Both the position numbers and the translations under genes were made by a program. 47,718 nucleotides of DNA from NCBI GenBank assembly GCA_007124745.1, contig SLEO01000151.1, positions 1 through 47,718 of the forward strand, given 5' to 3'. The first letter of the stretch is position 1. The number at the start of each line of letters is the position of its first letter. This stretch comes from Myxococcales bacterium (GTDB lineage Bacteria; Myxococcota_A; Polyangia; Polyangiales; SLQV01). The notes under the pieces were generated by a model. The model made no database searches and had not been told where the DNA came from. It worked only from the letters and a program-made list of their open reading frames with translations. This document shows positions 1 to 47,113 of this stretch, piece by piece.

Positions 1-145
1 AAGCGAACACTCGGCAACAACGAGCAAGTGGGCGCTGGGACCCCACGCGCAGCTTTGGGCCACCTAGGGGCAGGGGGGGACCGGCCTGCGGGATTGACTC
101 CCGACAACCCGGGGGCATTTTGTAACATGCACCCCCTCACGATCC

Positions 146-289
146 GAGCCATCCCCAGGTTGAGCCTGGGGGACGAAAGCCGCGGGAAAATGGGCCTTCC
201 GTGCGCGGACCCACCCACCCCACCGTACTTACTCCAGGCCCATTTCCCCGCGGCTTTCTGCGTCTCGACTCCATGAGGGGATCGCTCAG
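146..289. repeat. Dispersed nested inverted-repeat element, copy 1 (MITE/REP-like or structured RNA)
   Basis: Aligned without gaps to 15707-15850 with about 9 mismatches. Inner arms 176-197 (AAAGCCGCGGGAAAATGGGCCT) and 236-257 (AGGCCCATTTCCCCGCGGCTTT), one mismatch. Terminal segments CCGAGCCATCCCC / GGGGATCGCTCAG are imperfect inverted repeats. Confidence 0.9.
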
Positions 290-300
290 CTTCACGATAC

Positions 301-11180: not shown

Positions 11181-13856
11181 TTAAGTATGCGACGCGCTAA
11201 GCCCTTCGAGCGCCCCCTTCCGGGATGGGGAACGCCCACGCCTGGTTGGAAAAAGCAAACGCAGCAGCAAGGGCAAGTAGACCAGCGTGGCACACAGACA
11301 CGTGACGACCGTCACACCGACAAGCTCACCAAACTCGCGGATGGGCGGAAAGGCGCTGAAGAGCAGCACGCCGAATCCTAATGCAAGGGCGAGGCTCGCC
11401 ACCGTTACTGCGTAGCCCGCGCGGGCCGCCGCTAGCACGAGCAGCCGCGACGAAAGACGCGGCCGCGCCTTCAGGTGCGGCGCAATGAAGGCCAGTAAAT
11501 GAATGCTCGCGTCGACGGCCAAACCAAAGCTCAGCGTAAAGATCATCGCCGTGGCAGCGCTTAGCTGTATGTCCCGAAACCCCATGTATCCGAAGGCCAC
11601 AACGAGCGGCGCCACACTCGTGGGCAGGGCCACCAGCGCCAGGCGCATCGAGCCAAAGGCGATACGCAGCAGCACCAAAATTGCCAGCAGCGCAAGACCC
11701 AAGCTGAGCGAAAGGTCCCCCACTAAAGTGCCAAGTGCGGAGGCAGCACTCGCGCCGCTGCCAAAGAGCGTCACCTCGACGTTCGTGCCCAGCGCGCTGG
11801 AGAGGTCAGCTTCGAGGGCGCGGGCCAGCAATGGTAGCCGTGCCACCGCTGACGAAGCGAGCCCGACTTCTACCAGCGCCGTGTCACCGGCCAAAGAGAT
11901 GCCGACCCGCGCGGGCTTCTGCGCTCTAATCACGTTGACCAGCGCCTGGAGTGCCTCCGACGATAGCGTTTCGAGCCCACCCGGACCGTTCGGCGACAGC
12001 CTCCGAAGCGCTTGCGCCAGGAGTGGCGTGGGCGCTTCCACAAAGCGCACGCCGGCTTCTGCGCTCAGCGCCGCCGACAGGACCGTATCGAGATTCTGAA
12101 GGTTGCTTGGTTGGTACCAGAATCGCGCCGGTGCTTGGATGGAAAACGTCGCTTGCTCCAAGCCAACCAGCTTGTCGTCGATCATGAGCGCCGCCTTGTA
12201 GGTGGGCGACGCTGGGTCGAGATGGGCCAACGGCGACGTGGTGCGCTCGACCGTCATCGCCGCTGGTATCGCGATAAACGCTGCCAGCAAGCCCAATACG
12301 AGCAGGCGGACGCGATGGCGGAGCACCCATTCGGTGAGCTGAGCGAGCCCGCGCCGCACTTGGCGACCCGTTCGCCGAGCCGCCAGTTTGCCGAGCGCCC
12401 AACGCGGCAGCAGCGCCAAGATGGCGGGCACGAGCGTCACGGACGCCAAGAAGGCGAGCCCTACGCCAAGCGCCCCAGCGAGCCCAAAGCCCCGGATGAC
12501 GTCATTGCGCGTCACGCAGAGCGCTAGCAAGCCCGCCATCGTCGTGGCGGAGGTGAGCAGGCAGGGCCGCAGCAGACGCCGCGCGGATTCGAAGGCGGCC
12601 GCATCCCGCGGCCAGCGCCGGCTCATAAGGCTTTGGCAGTGCAGCACAATATGCACGCCATCGCTCAGACCGATCACGACGATGAGTGCGGGCAACACAC
12701 TGGTAAGAACCGTTAGGCTGAGGCCGAACCAGCCCATCAGTCCAAAGGTGGCAAGCCCCGCCAGCGCCACCGCGAGCAGAGCGACAAGCGTCGGGACGAC
12801 CGCACGGAACGCGAGCGCCATGATCAACGCCGACACTAGAACGGTCAACGGCAACAGCGTCGTCTGGTCCTGCTCCATCGCGAGGACGATTTCCGTCCGC
12901 AGAGGCAGCAGCCCCGAAAGCTTCACGTCGGCCCCTTCCGGGCGGGGAACGGCCCGAATCGTCGCCTCGAGACTGGCGATAAGCGCGCCCCGAGCGGGCA
13001 GCTCGGTGGGCACTTCATGCAAAAACACCGCGACAGGCGCCGCGGTGCCGTCATCGCTGATGAGTCGCTGGTCGAAGTCGGCGCCACCAGCGAACGACGC
13101 TGCCATCTCCTCCGGGTCGGACACAGGTTCCCGCTCGCGGGCCGTGAAGTCGGGCAGACTAGCGAGTCCATATTCGAAATGGTCGCCCGCCTGACGCACA
13201 AAGCTATCGAGGGCGCGCAATACCTCGCCAGGCATGCCGCCCGGTCCGGGCTCGAGCTTGAGGCTCGCCGCACCAGGTCCGCCAGACGCCGAAGACGACG
13301 CCGCGCTTCCCGGCGCCGCCGCTGCGCCGGCGCCAGGGCTCGGGTCCGAATCGTCGTCCGCCAACGCTTCCAGCGCATCGAGGTCGGGACCTTCGGGGGC
13401 CGCGCCCGCCGCCGGATCGCCCCCCCCCCCACGCTCGACCGCATCCACCCACGCAAGGCGCGGGAGCGTGACGAGACTATCGGCGGCGCGCACCTCTGAC
13501 CGCTCGGCGAGCGCTTGGGTCAACGTTTGCAAATAAGCGAGCCCCGGCGCCTCCCGCAAAGAAACCCCGGACACGAGCACGACCACATCGGGCCTCCGGT
13601 CTGGCCAATAACGCGTGGCAGATGCAGCAGCAGCCAGTGCAGCCTCGGATGCGACAAAGAGACGTTCGGGGGTCGGGTCCAGCTGCAACCGGCCAAGACC
13701 CGGAACCGCGACCGCAAGCAAGAGCAACCATGCGCCGAGGGCGGTCCAAGCCCAGCGACGCGGCCGCTCAGGGGACGGCCGTGACGGACGCTGGCGGTTG
13801 GGTTGCGCTCGATGTCTCACGTGAAGCGCCTTGGCTGCAACCGTCGCGGGCTGCAA
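11181..13856 (-). CDS. RND/MMPL-family exporter (hydrophobe/lipid exporter-like)
   Basis: About 890 aa, two TM clusters each followed by a periplasmic domain; GLSDGVHIVLH and FGLAVDASIHLLAF RND-type motifs. Confidence 0.85.
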   Translation of the reverse strand: MQPATVAAKALHVRHRAQPNRQRPSRPSPERPRRWAWTALGAWLLLLAVAVPGLGRLQLDPTPERLFVASEAALAAAASATRYWPDRRPDVVVLVSGVSLREAPGLAYLQTLTQALAERSEVRAADSLVTLPRLAWVDAVERGGGGDPAAGAAPEGPDLDALEALADDDSDPSPGAGAAAAPGSAASSSASGGPGAASLKLEPGPGGMPGEVLRALDSFVRQAGDHFEYGLASLPDFTAREREPVSDPEEMAASFAGGADFDQRLISDDGTAAPVAVFLHEVPTELPARGALIASLEATIRAVPRPEGADVKLSGLLPLRTEIVLAMEQDQTTLLPLTVLVSALIMALAFRAVVPTLVALLAVALAGLATFGLMGWFGLSLTVLTSVLPALIVVIGLSDGVHIVLHCQSLMSRRWPRDAAAFESARRLLRPCLLTSATTMAGLLALCVTRNDVIRGFGLAGALGVGLAFLASVTLVPAILALLPRWALGKLAARRTGRQVRRGLAQLTEWVLRHRVRLLVLGLLAAFIAIPAAMTVERTTSPLAHLDPASPTYKAALMIDDKLVGLEQATFSIQAPARFWYQPSNLQNLDTVLSAALSAEAGVRFVEAPTPLLAQALRRLSPNGPGGLETLSSEALQALVNVIRAQKPARVGISLAGDTALVEVGLASSAVARLPLLARALEADLSSALGTNVEVTLFGSGASAASALGTLVGDLSLSLGLALLAILVLLRIAFGSMRLALVALPTSVAPLVVAFGYMGFRDIQLSAATAMIFTLSFGLAVDASIHLLAFIAPHLKARPRLSSRLLVLAAARAGYAVTVASLALALGFGVLLFSAFPPIREFGELVGVTVVTCLCATLVYLPLLLRLLFPTRRGRSPSRKGALEGLSASHT

Positions 13857-13910
13857 GGTGACGCACCGCCAAGCTTGTGCGAAATTTGCGTGGTAGCGTG
13901 CGGTGGCAGC

Positions 13911-15626
13911 ATGAGTTCAGGCCGACAGATCCGCGGGCGGGCCGCGCGCTTTGCCGGCGGCACGCTGCTATCCCGTGTGACCGGCGCTGCGCGCGACATC
14001 GTCCTAGCGTCCTGTTTACCCACCTGGCTTTTCGACGTCTTCATCGTCGCGTTCACCATACCCAACACCCTGCGAACGCTTATCGCCGAGGGTGCAACTT
14101 CCAGCGCGATTGTGCCGCTCTACGCCGCTATCGATCCAAGTGACCGGGCTGCTCGCGCGGACTTTCTCCGGCGCGCGCTGGGTTTTGTGGTCAGCATCGC
14201 GGCACTGTCGAGCCTCTTGCTTCTCTTCGGCGCCGGGCTGCTGATCAATCTCTACGCGCCCGGGCTCAGCGACGCGTCTCGTGAGCAAGCTGTCGTCTTT
14301 GTCCGCGCCTTCGGGCCTTATGTCATCCTCCTGGCCTGGACCGCGGCGCTCCAGGGCGTTCTCACCGCAGAGCACCGCCTGGGCCTTGTCGGTGCTCTGC
14401 CGGGCCTGCTCAACTTGGGGCTTATCGCCGGCGCTGTCGCAAGCCTCAGCCCGGAGCTGAGCGCCACCTGGACCCTCACGGCGGGGCTTTACGGCGCGGC
14501 CCTAGTGCAGCTCATCGCCTCGGCTCGGGCGCTCAGGCATCTAGGCAAGTCACTTTGGCCCACGCTCCGCCGCTGGGACGCCCTCAGCGGGCAAATGATG
14601 GGCCTACTCGGCCCTACCCTTGTGCTGAGTGCCGTCTACCAGGCGCAGGTCCTGTTGACACGCGCTTACGCTTCCTATGCTGGGCTCGGCGCGCAGACGT
14701 ACCTCTACCTGGGGCAGCGCCTGATAGAAGTCCCTCTCGCACTCGTGGCCGCCTCCCTCTCCACCGCACTGCTTCCGGAACTGAGCCGCAGCGCTGCTGC
14801 GGAAGGGGGCGGTCACCCTGCTTCACAAGGGCGTGCAGACGGCCAGAAGGCTGCACCCACAACGACAAACGACACGAACGCGCGCTCAGATTCGGAAGTG
14901 CGCAACTCAGACCGGGGCGGCACGCCGAAAGACGCGCTAGCAGACGTGGAAGCCATCGACGCCTCCCGCACATCAGAGGGCCATGGCAAGCACCATCTCT
15001 TGGGGTCATCGCTGAGAGGCGGGCTTTTCCTGGTGTGGCCCGTGGTACTGGTACTGTGTCTCTGCGGCTACGAGATAGCGGACCTTCTCTTTGGCCGGGG
15101 CGAGTTCAGTGCCAAAGACAGTGCCGCGACCGCGGCCTCCTTGCGTATCCAAGCCCTAGGGCTCTTGCCCGCTTTCTCCGCCCGCCTGCTCACGCCCGTC
15201 TTCTACGCGCGCAAGCGCCCAAGCTTGCTCGCCTATGCGACGGTCCTGCAGCTCGTCGCCTACGCTGCCTGCGGCGCACCGCTACTTCGCAGCCACGGCC
15301 ACGTGGGCCTCGCACTGGCATCGACGCTCGCCTTGCTCGTGTATGCCGTCACGCTCGCAGCCGTCGCCTGCCGTCTCGACAAAACACTAGCCGCTGCCCT
15401 CCGCGCTCAAACCCTGCCGTTGCTGAAGCAACTCACCGCAGTATCGCTGGCGGCGGGCATGGCGCTGCTCGCGCTACCCTGCCTCGCCCCGTGGCCAGGC
15501 TGGGCACGCCTGGGAGCCGTCAGCCTCGGCGCCAGCAGCCTCTACCTCGTTGTCATCGTCGCACTTGACACCGAGCTGCGCGCGGCGCTTCAGCGCCTGC
15601 TGACGCGCGCCCAAGTCGGCGCCTAG
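13911..15626 (+). CDS. murJ: Lipid II flippase MurJ/MviN
   Basis: ATG at 13911; ARFAGGTLLSRVTGAARDIVLASCL, AFTIPNTLRTLIAEGATSSAIVPLY, many TM helices. ORF track starts at 13803. Confidence 0.92.
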   Translation: MSSGRQIRGRAARFAGGTLLSRVTGAARDIVLASCLPTWLFDVFIVAFTIPNTLRTLIAEGATSSAIVPLYAAIDPSDRAARADFLRRALGFVVSIAALSSLLLLFGAGLLINLYAPGLSDASREQAVVFVRAFGPYVILLAWTAALQGVLTAEHRLGLVGALPGLLNLGLIAGAVASLSPELSATWTLTAGLYGAALVQLIASARALRHLGKSLWPTLRRWDALSGQMMGLLGPTLVLSAVYQAQVLLTRAYASYAGLGAQTYLYLGQRLIEVPLALVAASLSTALLPELSRSAAAEGGGHPASQGRADGQKAAPTTTNDTNARSDSEVRNSDRGGTPKDALADVEAIDASRTSEGHGKHHLLGSSLRGGLFLVWPVVLVLCLCGYEIADLLFGRGEFSAKDSAATAASLRIQALGLLPAFSARLLTPVFYARKRPSLLAYATVLQLVAYAACGAPLLRSHGHVGLALASTLALLVYAVTLAAVACRLDKTLAAALRAQTLPLLKQLTAVSLAAGMALLALPCLAPWPGWARLGAVSLGASSLYLVVIVALDTELRAALQRLLTRAQVGA

Positions 15627-15668: not shown

Positions 15669-15706
15669 AAGACCTGCCACACGCCTAGGGCTGGGGGCTC
15701 GAAGCT

Positions 15707-15850
15707 GAGCCATCCCCAGGGTGAGCCTTGGGGACGAAAGCCGCGGGGAAATGGGCCTTCCGTGCGCGGACCCACCCACCCCACCATACTCACTCCAGGC
15801 CCATTTCCCCGCGGCTTTCTGCGTCTCGAGTTCATGAGGGGACAGCTCAG
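15707..15850. repeat. Dispersed nested inverted-repeat element, copy 2
   Basis: Aligned to 146-289. Inner arms 15737-15758 and 15797-15818 form a perfect 22-bp inverted repeat. Outer imperfect repeat CTGAGCCATCCCC / GGGGACAGCTCAG. Confidence 0.92.
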
Positions 15851-16011
15851 GGCTCGAAGAACGTATGGATAGCTCGCAACAAGAACCAAAGGCCGAAGCA
15901 AAGCGCAAGCGCATAGCCTCCGATGGCCAGAAGGGAATCGGAGACTGAGCCCCTTAGCCAGACCGGCCCGCTTTCCCGTACTAAGGTGCAACCTATGGCC
16001 AAGCCGAGCAC
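15847..16011 (-). CDS. Possible small membrane protein (~54 aa)
   Basis: C-terminal SDSLLAIGGYALALCFGLWFLLRAIHTFFEP looks like a TM helix. A GTG at 16011 could be the start. It slightly overlaps the engB start antisense, so this is speculative. Confidence 0.3.
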   Translation of the reverse strand: MLGLAIGCTLVRESGPVWLRGSVSDSLLAIGGYALALCFGLWFLLRAIHTFFEP

Positions 16012-16759
16012 ACCGCCCAAGCGCAGCCGCGCTGCCAAACCTGCGGCCCCGAAGCGGAACGACGCTAGCAAGCCCACGCCGCCAGCATCTCGGAGCAAAG
16101 ACCTCAACGTCGCGGACAGCCGCTTCGTCATCTCCGCCACCAACAACGCAGGGCTAGTCTCACTTGAAGCATTGCCGCAGATAGCGGTGGCGGGCGCATC
16201 TAACGTGGGCAAGTCGTCACTCTTGAACGCGCTGCTCGCGCGTAAGGGGCTCGTGCGGACTAGCAAGTCGCCGGGCTGCACCCGTCTCCTCAATGTCTTT
16301 GGCGTCACCTTCGGCACGCAGCCGCTCTACTTCGTGGACCTGCCTGGCTACGGCTACGCCGCCCGCTCGAAAAGCGAACGCCGAGAATGGGGGGAATCCA
16401 TCGATAGCTACCTTTCGGAAAGCGCCGAACTCGCCCTAGTCCTGATACTCGTAGACAGCCGCCGCGGCATCGGCCCCTTCGAAGACCAGCTCATCGACTG
16501 GCTCCAAACCCAAGCCCGCAGCATGGAGATAGTCGTCACCAAGCTAGACAAGCTCCCCAAAGCCAAACAAAAGCCCACCATGGCGGCCTTCAAAGCTGAG
16601 CTCAAAGCCCGCGCCGCCCCGATGGCCCTGAGCCCCATTCCAGTGGTGGGCACGTCCAGCGAGACCGGCGAAGGCATCCCCCACCTCCGCGACCGCTGCC
16701 TCCGCGCCGCCCTCACCCACCTCACCACCCCCGCACCGAAAGTCGTTACGAATGCATAA
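15995..16759 (+). CDS. engB: Ribosome biogenesis GTPase EngB/YihA
   Basis: P-loop VAGASNVGKSSLLNALL, SKSPGCTRLLNVF, YFVDLPGYGYA, VVTKLDKL. ATG at 15995 with upstream AAGGTG preferred over 15923. Confidence 0.93.
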   Translation: MAKPSTPPKRSRAAKPAAPKRNDASKPTPPASRSKDLNVADSRFVISATNNAGLVSLEALPQIAVAGASNVGKSSLLNALLARKGLVRTSKSPGCTRLLNVFGVTFGTQPLYFVDLPGYGYAARSKSERREWGESIDSYLSESAELALVLILVDSRRGIGPFEDQLIDWLQTQARSMEIVVTKLDKLPKAKQKPTMAAFKAELKARAAPMALSPIPVVGTSSETGEGIPHLRDRCLRAALTHLTTPAPKVVTNA

Positions 16760-29231: not shown

Positions 29232-29514
29232 TCAGAGTCTCCAACATAAGCAGCCTAAGTGCCATCTATCGCGCGTATCTGTTCCGGGGGCACTTTACAC
29301 GCATGCCCCCGAGTTTTCGGGCGTGAATCCCGCACGCCTCTCCCCCAAAAAACCAAAGCCGGCAAGTGGGTCCCAACCGCCCACGCGGCTCTTTCCCTCA
29401 GGGTTTTCGCTATCTGGACCCCCTGAACGCTTACTATCGCGCCGATGCGCATGAATACACCGCACCGTTCGCCCGCCGCTTCCGTCGCGCAGACGCGCGC
29501 GCTAGGTTTTCCTG

Positions 29515-45251: not shown

Positions 45252-46878
45252 CCCTGCCCCCACAGGCGGCGTGCTGACTCACGTCGAGGTCTACGACACG
45301 ACGCTGCGTGACGGCACGCAGGCGGAAGGACTTTCGCTCTCCGCCAGCGACAAGCTGCGCATCATTCGGGCCCTCGACGACTTCGGCATCGACTACATCG
45401 AGGCGGGTTTTCCGGGATCGAATCCAAAAGATGCGGAGCTGTTTGCGCGCGCCCGCGAGCTCTCCCTCCGTCATGCCAAGGTGGTGGCCTTCGGGGCGAC
45501 GCGTCACCCGGAACGCACGCCCGAGGGCGACAGCGGTCTCGCTGCGTTGCTCGCTGCGGAAACGGAGATTTGCACGCTCTTTGGTAAGAGCTGGCGGCTG
45601 CACGTTGAAGACGTATTGCGCATCTCCGAGGACGACAACCTCAAACTCATCGAGGATTCTCTCGCGTACCTAGCGGGCCACGGGCGGCGCGTCTTCTTCG
45701 ACGCCGAGCACTTTTTCGACGGCTTTACCGCCGAACCCGAGTTTGCCCTCCGCGTGCTCGGAGCGGCCCTCGCTGGCGGCGCCAGCCGGCTCATTCTGTG
45801 CGACACCAACGGCGGCAAGTTGCCTTGGGAGGTCCATGAAATCGTCAGCGCCGTCCGCGACCGCTTCCCCCAAGCGGTCATCGGCATCCACGCGCACAAC
45901 GATACGGAGTGCGCGGTCGCCAACTCTCTCGCTGCAGTCCAGGCCGGCGCACGACAGGTGCAGGGGACCATCAACGGCTTCGGCGAACGCTGCGGCAACG
46001 GCAACCTCTGCTCGATTCTCCCCGGTCTTGAGATCAAGCTTGGCTTGCAGTGCCTAGATCCAGGCAAACTCAAGCAGCTTAGAGACCTCGCTCGCCTCGT
46101 CTCCGAGGTGTGCAACACAAAGCTCAACCCGCATGCAGCGTATGTGGGCCGCAGCGCCTTCGCCCATAAGGGTGGGGTGCACGTCTCGGCCATGCGCCGC
46201 TCCATTGATTCTTACCAACACATCGACCCTGCGCTCGTCGGCAACGTCTCTCGCGTTCTGGTGAGTGAGCTCTCCGGTCGCTCGAACCTTGTGACCAAGG
46301 CCGAGGAGTTCGGTCTCAAGACCAATGCCGTCGATGCGGCGGTCATCGTGAATCAGATCAAGCACTACGAATCTCAAGGGTTTTCTTTCGAGGCTGCTGA
46401 GGCCTCGGTAGCACTGCTCATCAAGCGCGCCGAGCCGTCTTACGCCCCCCCCTTCAAGCTCACTGATTTTCAGGTGACGGTAGGTGAACGCGGCACAGCG
46501 GAGCCCTTCAGCGAAGCGACGGTGCGGGTTGAGGTCGATGGAGAGCTGATGCACACCGCCGGCAGCGGCAACGGCCCGGTCAGCGCCCTCGACCAAGCAC
46601 TACGCAAAGCGCTGGGCATCCGTTACCCGCAGCTAAGCGCCGTCACCTTAAGCGGCTACAAGGTGCGCATTCTCAACGAGGACGCCGCAACGGGCGCCAT
46701 TACCCGTGTACTCATCGCCCACGACGGTCCCAGCGGCACCTTCAGCACCGTAGGCGCCTCGACCAACATCATCGCCGCCTCTCTCCTCGCCCTCATCGAC
46801 GGCCTCGAGTTCGCCCTACTCACCGCACGCGGCGACTTCCACACCGACCCTCCCGTAGCGGCTCAGGGGGCACCTTAG
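45241..46878 (+). CDS. cimA: (R)-citramalate synthase
   Basis: VEVYDTTLRDGTQAEGLSLSASDKLRIIRALDDFGIDYIEAGFPGSNPKD, FFDAEHFFDGFTAEPEFAL, GIHAHNDTECAVANSLAAVQAGARQVQGTINGFGERCGN. GTG at 45241 overlaps the leuD end. Confidence 0.9.
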   Translation: MLTDPAPTGGVLTHVEVYDTTLRDGTQAEGLSLSASDKLRIIRALDDFGIDYIEAGFPGSNPKDAELFARARELSLRHAKVVAFGATRHPERTPEGDSGLAALLAAETEICTLFGKSWRLHVEDVLRISEDDNLKLIEDSLAYLAGHGRRVFFDAEHFFDGFTAEPEFALRVLGAALAGGASRLILCDTNGGKLPWEVHEIVSAVRDRFPQAVIGIHAHNDTECAVANSLAAVQAGARQVQGTINGFGERCGNGNLCSILPGLEIKLGLQCLDPGKLKQLRDLARLVSEVCNTKLNPHAAYVGRSAFAHKGGVHVSAMRRSIDSYQHIDPALVGNVSRVLVSELSGRSNLVTKAEEFGLKTNAVDAAVIVNQIKHYESQGFSFEAAEASVALLIKRAEPSYAPPFKLTDFQVTVGERGTAEPFSEATVRVEVDGELMHTAGSGNGPVSALDQALRKALGIRYPQLSAVTLSGYKVRILNEDAATGAITRVLIAHDGPSGTFSTVGASTNIIAASLLALIDGLEFALLTARGDFHTDPPVAAQGAP

Positions 46879-47113
46879 AGAATGCGCCCTAGCATTGCGG
46901 GAGCAAATCCCCGACGGCGCCCCCACTCCTCCTCTAGGGTGGCCTAAAGCTGCGTGCGTTGCTTTCGCGCGGGTAGCGACCGCGGCATTCCTTGGCTAAG
47001 CTTCGCCGGGGTTTTTCGAAGACCGAGGCGGCTAGCGTCGACCGACGTGCGAAATCTCTCTGGGCTGCCGCCGGTTAGGCCGCAGTCACCTTACCTAAAC
47101 TCGTTCGCTAACT

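Follow-up and report, generated by a model that had tools for sequence, protein, structure and literature searches.

The repeat found twice in the window, the stretch of 47,718 nt analysed here, is very probably a non-coding IS10-type MITE moved in trans by an IS10-like transposase made elsewhere. Its multiple copies have fixed, IS10-like ends and 9-bp flanking duplications, empty sites exist, and its insertions are biased towards intergenic DNA. The source genome, a Myxococcota MAG from a soda lake (3.31 Mb, 377 contigs, 83% complete), contains the window as its contig C323, and further copies are carried by a congener (bin 90% complete), which is probably Myxococcales bacterium CSSed165cm_553. 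In the mechanism proposed, the transposase of an IS10-like insertion sequence would bind the ~13-bp terminal inverted repeats, CTGAGC[C/G]ATCCCC, excise or copy the MITE, and insert it at a 9-bp staggered target that would thereby be duplicated.

Anatomy and distribution of the family

A repeat search of the window returned a direct repeat at 146-289 and 15707-15850 (144 nt each, 94% identity, 9 mismatches, ungapped), in agreement with the about 9 substitutions and no indels that the earlier note gave. Comparison with family copies shifts both left ends 2 bp outward, so that copy 1 occupies 144..289 and copy 2 occupies 15705..15850, both on the plus strand and both 146 bp long, and a family-profile search yielded no third copy in the window. 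Copy 1 reads CCGAGCC...GCTCAG, the family consensus being CTGAGCC...GCTCAG. Its terminal inverted repeats of ~13 bp lie at 144..156 (plus strand, CCGAGCCATCCCC) and 277..289 (minus strand, reverse complement CTGAGCGATCCCC, which resembles the IS10 end), and two 18-bp arms separate them from an inner palindrome with one mismatch, whose own arms at 175..197 (GAAAGCCGCGGGAAAATGGGCCT) and 236..258 (AGGCCCATTTCCCCGCGGCTTTC), both on the plus strand, enclose a 38-nt loop (198..235, plus strand) with a TCCG-TGCG-CGGA mini-stem and C-runs that are G-runs on the minus strand. Copy 1 has all three symmetries claimed in the earlier note: an outer inverted repeat, the small CCCCAGG hairpin, and an inner inverted repeat whose A:C mismatch and 38-nt loop were borne out and whose length is 23 bp instead of 22. 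The CCCCAGG hairpin is a trait of the young subfamily only, older copies having CCCTCAA at the same place. The element has no coding capacity, and 146 bp is too short for a transposase of ~400 aa.

The loop shows some variation of its own. Its minus strand at 198-235, GGTGGGGTGGGTGGG, is a possible G-quadruplex, which the TGCTCGCC-bearing subfamily does not have, and three copies (L090, L098 and L102) contain an identical 12-bp tandem duplication, ACTTACTCCAGG.

The two copies reported earlier are all that the window holds, but genome-wide there are dozens. A DNA search of the source genome gave 152 candidates, of which the best 40 were scored and all matched. With up to 3 mismatches allowed, 99 instances of the end motif CTGAGCNATCCCCTCATGA were counted, whereas a reversed-pattern control gave 2. 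From the stretches fetched, 75 distinct near-full copies bounded by CTGAGC...GCTCAG were recovered (65 from the source genome and 10 from the congener); these counts are lower bounds, at least 60 in the source genome and at least 75 in both genomes, and two of the 75 had misassigned ends and were removed by length before alignments were made. The terminal inverted repeats comprise 12 outer pairs, with 96% of cells paired across 70 copies. Divergence from the consensus ranges from 0.7% to ~26%, and the history of the family is one of a recent burst over older subfamilies.

Outside these two genomes the family was not encountered. A scan of 85,462 species with a 21-base core motif found CSSed165cm_553 as the only organism, no credible copy was seen in further genomes among 57 relatives, and neither plasmids nor viral contigs gave a match. 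A weak match in one relative (G042) sits in DNA that reads as protein-coding and was rejected as chance. An Rfam scan returned no family at gathering score, its sub-threshold hits being limited to microRNA models, which any long hairpin will trigger, and a tRNA/tmRNA search returned nothing. The earlier note had named a total of just two genomic copies, or a catalogued family, as grounds against its proposal; what was found is dozens of copies and no Rfam match.

Target sites, empty sites and insertion context

The 9-bp flanking duplication is exact in 44 of the 75 copies and has at most one mismatch in 59, against 1.1 with shuffled flank partners, 0-2 at other lengths and 0-3 at other offsets. 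In the window, copy 1 is flanked on the plus strand by CCTCACGAT (135..143) and CTTCACGAT (290..298), which agree at 8 of 9 positions, and copy 2 by exact copies of GGCTCGAAG at 15696..15704 and 15851..15859, likewise on the plus strand. In ~65% of the target sites outside R2, a second repeat described below, the 9-mer begins with G and ends with C.

Copy 2 has a MurJ-like ORF on one side (13803-15626) and an ORF for a GTPase on the other (15923-16759), and is missing at the syntenic locus of the congener (G001), where 51 bp instead of 295 bp separate the gene matches. The intergenic flank there is too diverged to reveal the 9-mer of copy 2, so base-exact empty sites were sought in R2 instead. 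At least 10 MITE copies, in both orientations, share the R2 site GGTCNAGAN. MITE-free R2 copies read TTCAGGG-GGTCCAGAT-AGCGAAAACGC with a single 9-mer, and MITE-bearing R2 copies from which the element and one 9-mer are subtracted align to them without gaps. At one locus (L115), R2 with its own 8-bp duplication, TCATGGCG, encloses a MITE with its 9-bp duplication, ATCTGGACC, which is a clean nested insertion of the MITE into R2.

R2 is itself a high-copy family of ~155-173 bp with the ends GTAACCGTTCAGGGGG and CCCCCTGAACGGTTAC and at least 40 genomic copies; its 8-bp target duplications are exact in 15 of 29 candidate pairs. Three copies lie in the window: one at 2..134 (plus strand, 81% to the R2 consensus), which is cut by the contig start and has MITE copy 1 at or in its right end, one at 29275-29434 (minus strand) with exact GCGCGATA on both sides, and one at 46855-46958 (minus strand). 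R2 resembles an IS66-type MITE. The congener has pieces of an IS66 transposase and of one judged ISAs1-like by eye, each near an R2-type end (L222 ~1326; L086 300-620); they are possible remnants of the R2 mobiliser.

MITE insertions are strongly intergenic: only 7 of 65 interrupt a coding-like ORF, usually close to one of its ends, whereas 55% of positions drawn at random from these loci are coding-like. The ORF calls are approximate, as they were set by a simple codon-position G+C rule. The methyltransferase ORF next to copy 1 terminates at 301, 11 bp beyond the element, the distance given in the earlier note. Near copy 1 no match to a sigma-70-type promoter was found, and the sole terminator-like match falls outside the MITE.

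The proposed mobilising transposase and alternative readings

Read inward, the right end of the MITE is CTGAGCGATCCCCTCATGA, which matches the IS10 end CTGAGAGATCCCCTCATAA, a sequence confirmed in annotated plasmids. The ends of the family are written CTGAGCSATCCCC, and over 17-19 terminal bp they show specific agreement with IS10 as well as with IS10-like elements from this order. Complete elements of the latter kind (e.g., L132, L138, L143, L178 and L179) measure 1.26-1.47 kb; they share CTGANNNATCCCC ends and exact 9-bp duplications with the MITE, but carry an IS4 transposase of ~400 aa and were not found in the two MITE-carrying genomes. Two of their transposases were tested, and both matched the NCBIfam IS4 transposase model. 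Membership of the IS10 subgroup would further call for a transposase with DDE and YREK motifs that acts on these ends. The CT ends and 9-bp repeats of the MITE are the values published for that subgroup, whose members have CT ends and 9-bp direct repeats (PMC2266710).

An IS10 protein query and a 10-sequence profile, the latter search being run without a positive control, found no IS10-like transposase in either bin. We therefore infer the partner, both its membership of the IS10 subgroup and its action in trans on the MITE. The remark that no transposase explains the element is true of the window and of both binned assemblies, but the type of transposase can be read from the ends. Both assemblies break inside repeats. 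In the source genome (G000), three contigs (L033 1551, L034 119 and L035 120) stop ~120 bp inside an IS10-like end, CTGAGGGCTCCCCTCATAAAA (also given as CTGAGGGCTCCCCTCATAAAAAGCC), which differs from that of the MITE. The source genome thus probably has an IS10-like insertion sequence that was left unassembled, and the autonomous partner of the MITE may simply be unassembled. A Pfam DDE_Tnp_1 search for a partner gave weak fragments only, and a PF01609 fragment on contig C326 was set aside, as the stretch inspected around it lacks ends like those of the MITE. Many contigs of the congener (e.g., C83, C142, C216 and C86) start or end inside the MITE, which is therefore a main cause of assembly breaks.

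The family could also owe its mobility to a different group of transposases, such as the IS50 subgroup, which makes duplications of 8-9 bp. Several families generate 9-bp duplications, and the partner is missing from both bins, which leaves room for such an enzyme; however, the specifically IS10-like terminal 17-19 bp and the published combination of CT ends with 9 bp make it unlikely. REP elements, which are palindromes of 20-40 nt without terminal repeats or target duplications, share with the MITE an intergenic, palindromic and high-copy character. A REP/BIME-type palindrome mobilised by a REP-associated tyrosine transposase is nevertheless extremely improbable, since the element is 146 bp long and its terminal inverted repeats, like the 9-bp duplication of its target, are features of DDE transposition. 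The REP-like reading raised in the earlier note is contradicted on the same grounds, whereas its MITE reading is demonstrated by the many copies with constant ends, the duplicated targets and the empty sites.

The inner palindrome bears on whether the repeat is instead a dispersed structured non-coding RNA or cis-regulatory hairpin, retained for its RNA fold and only incidentally mobile. Both strands fold far more stably than shuffled sequences (z -5.8 and -5.7), and across 70 copies 95% of stem pairs are kept, with double-sided changes at 9 stem pairs and 41 cells altered on both sides against 8.0 in shuffles, a control that related copies inflate. Termini, inner stem and loop have also diverged less overall than the intervening arms. 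However, private mutations in 54 young copies show no bias towards any region, be it termini, arms, stem or loop (chi-square p 0.71), a pattern as in neutral decay in which no selection is seen after insertion, and arm-to-arm templated correction is thus a simpler account than a selected RNA. Several of the paired changes turn C:G into G:C or A:T into C:G; these have no wobble intermediate and suit such correction of a palindrome, and the missing Rfam family and promoter, together with a terminator-like match that lies outside the element, also speak against an RNA. This explanation is therefore very unlikely, and no observation requires the structured RNA that had been proposed as an option. 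The palindrome would rather be a by-product of the origin of the element, its symmetry being maintained by templated correction between the arms. Two old copies (L044 538-683 and L087 1017-1158) have an inner stem-loop that runs the opposite way with respect to the outer ends, as is expected from exchange between palindrome arms. Within the MITE itself the inner hairpin could be a working part, a single-stranded DNA or RNA structure that promotes transposition or alters the expression of neighbouring genes; this would explain why core and termini are conserved between subfamilies despite changed arms, but it is quite unlikely, and there is little sign of a host function of the MITE.

Comparison with known elements

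In a search of the open-access literature no paper on MITEs in myxobacteria was found, and this IS10-type family of uncultivated soda-lake Myxococcota appears to be undescribed so far, although the element is of an ordinary kind. It offers textbook empty sites and nested insertions. Elements of this kind break metagenome assemblies, and the insertion sequences that mobilise them can be lost from bins.

With IS10 (IS4 family, IS10 subgroup; ISVsa5 family in NCBI annotation) the MITE has in common the terminal CTGAG.GATCCCCTCAT and the 9-bp target duplication, but at 146 bp it lacks a transposase gene and its internal sequence is unrelated. In the Bacillus cereus group, the mobile insertion cassettes of IS231 (IS4 family) are likewise non-autonomous and have IS4-family ends. 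However, the IS231 subgroup has CAT ends and repeats of 10-12 bp (PMC2266710), whereas the MITE described here has CT ends and repeats of 9 bp. The Chunjie MITE of Geobacter uraniireducens and QMITE2 of Coxiella burnetii are, like the present family, short and non-coding; they too have terminal repeats, duplicate their targets, fold stably and exist in dozens of copies (PMC10969869). By contrast, their sequences differ from that of the present family, which is G+C-rich and contains a long inner palindrome.
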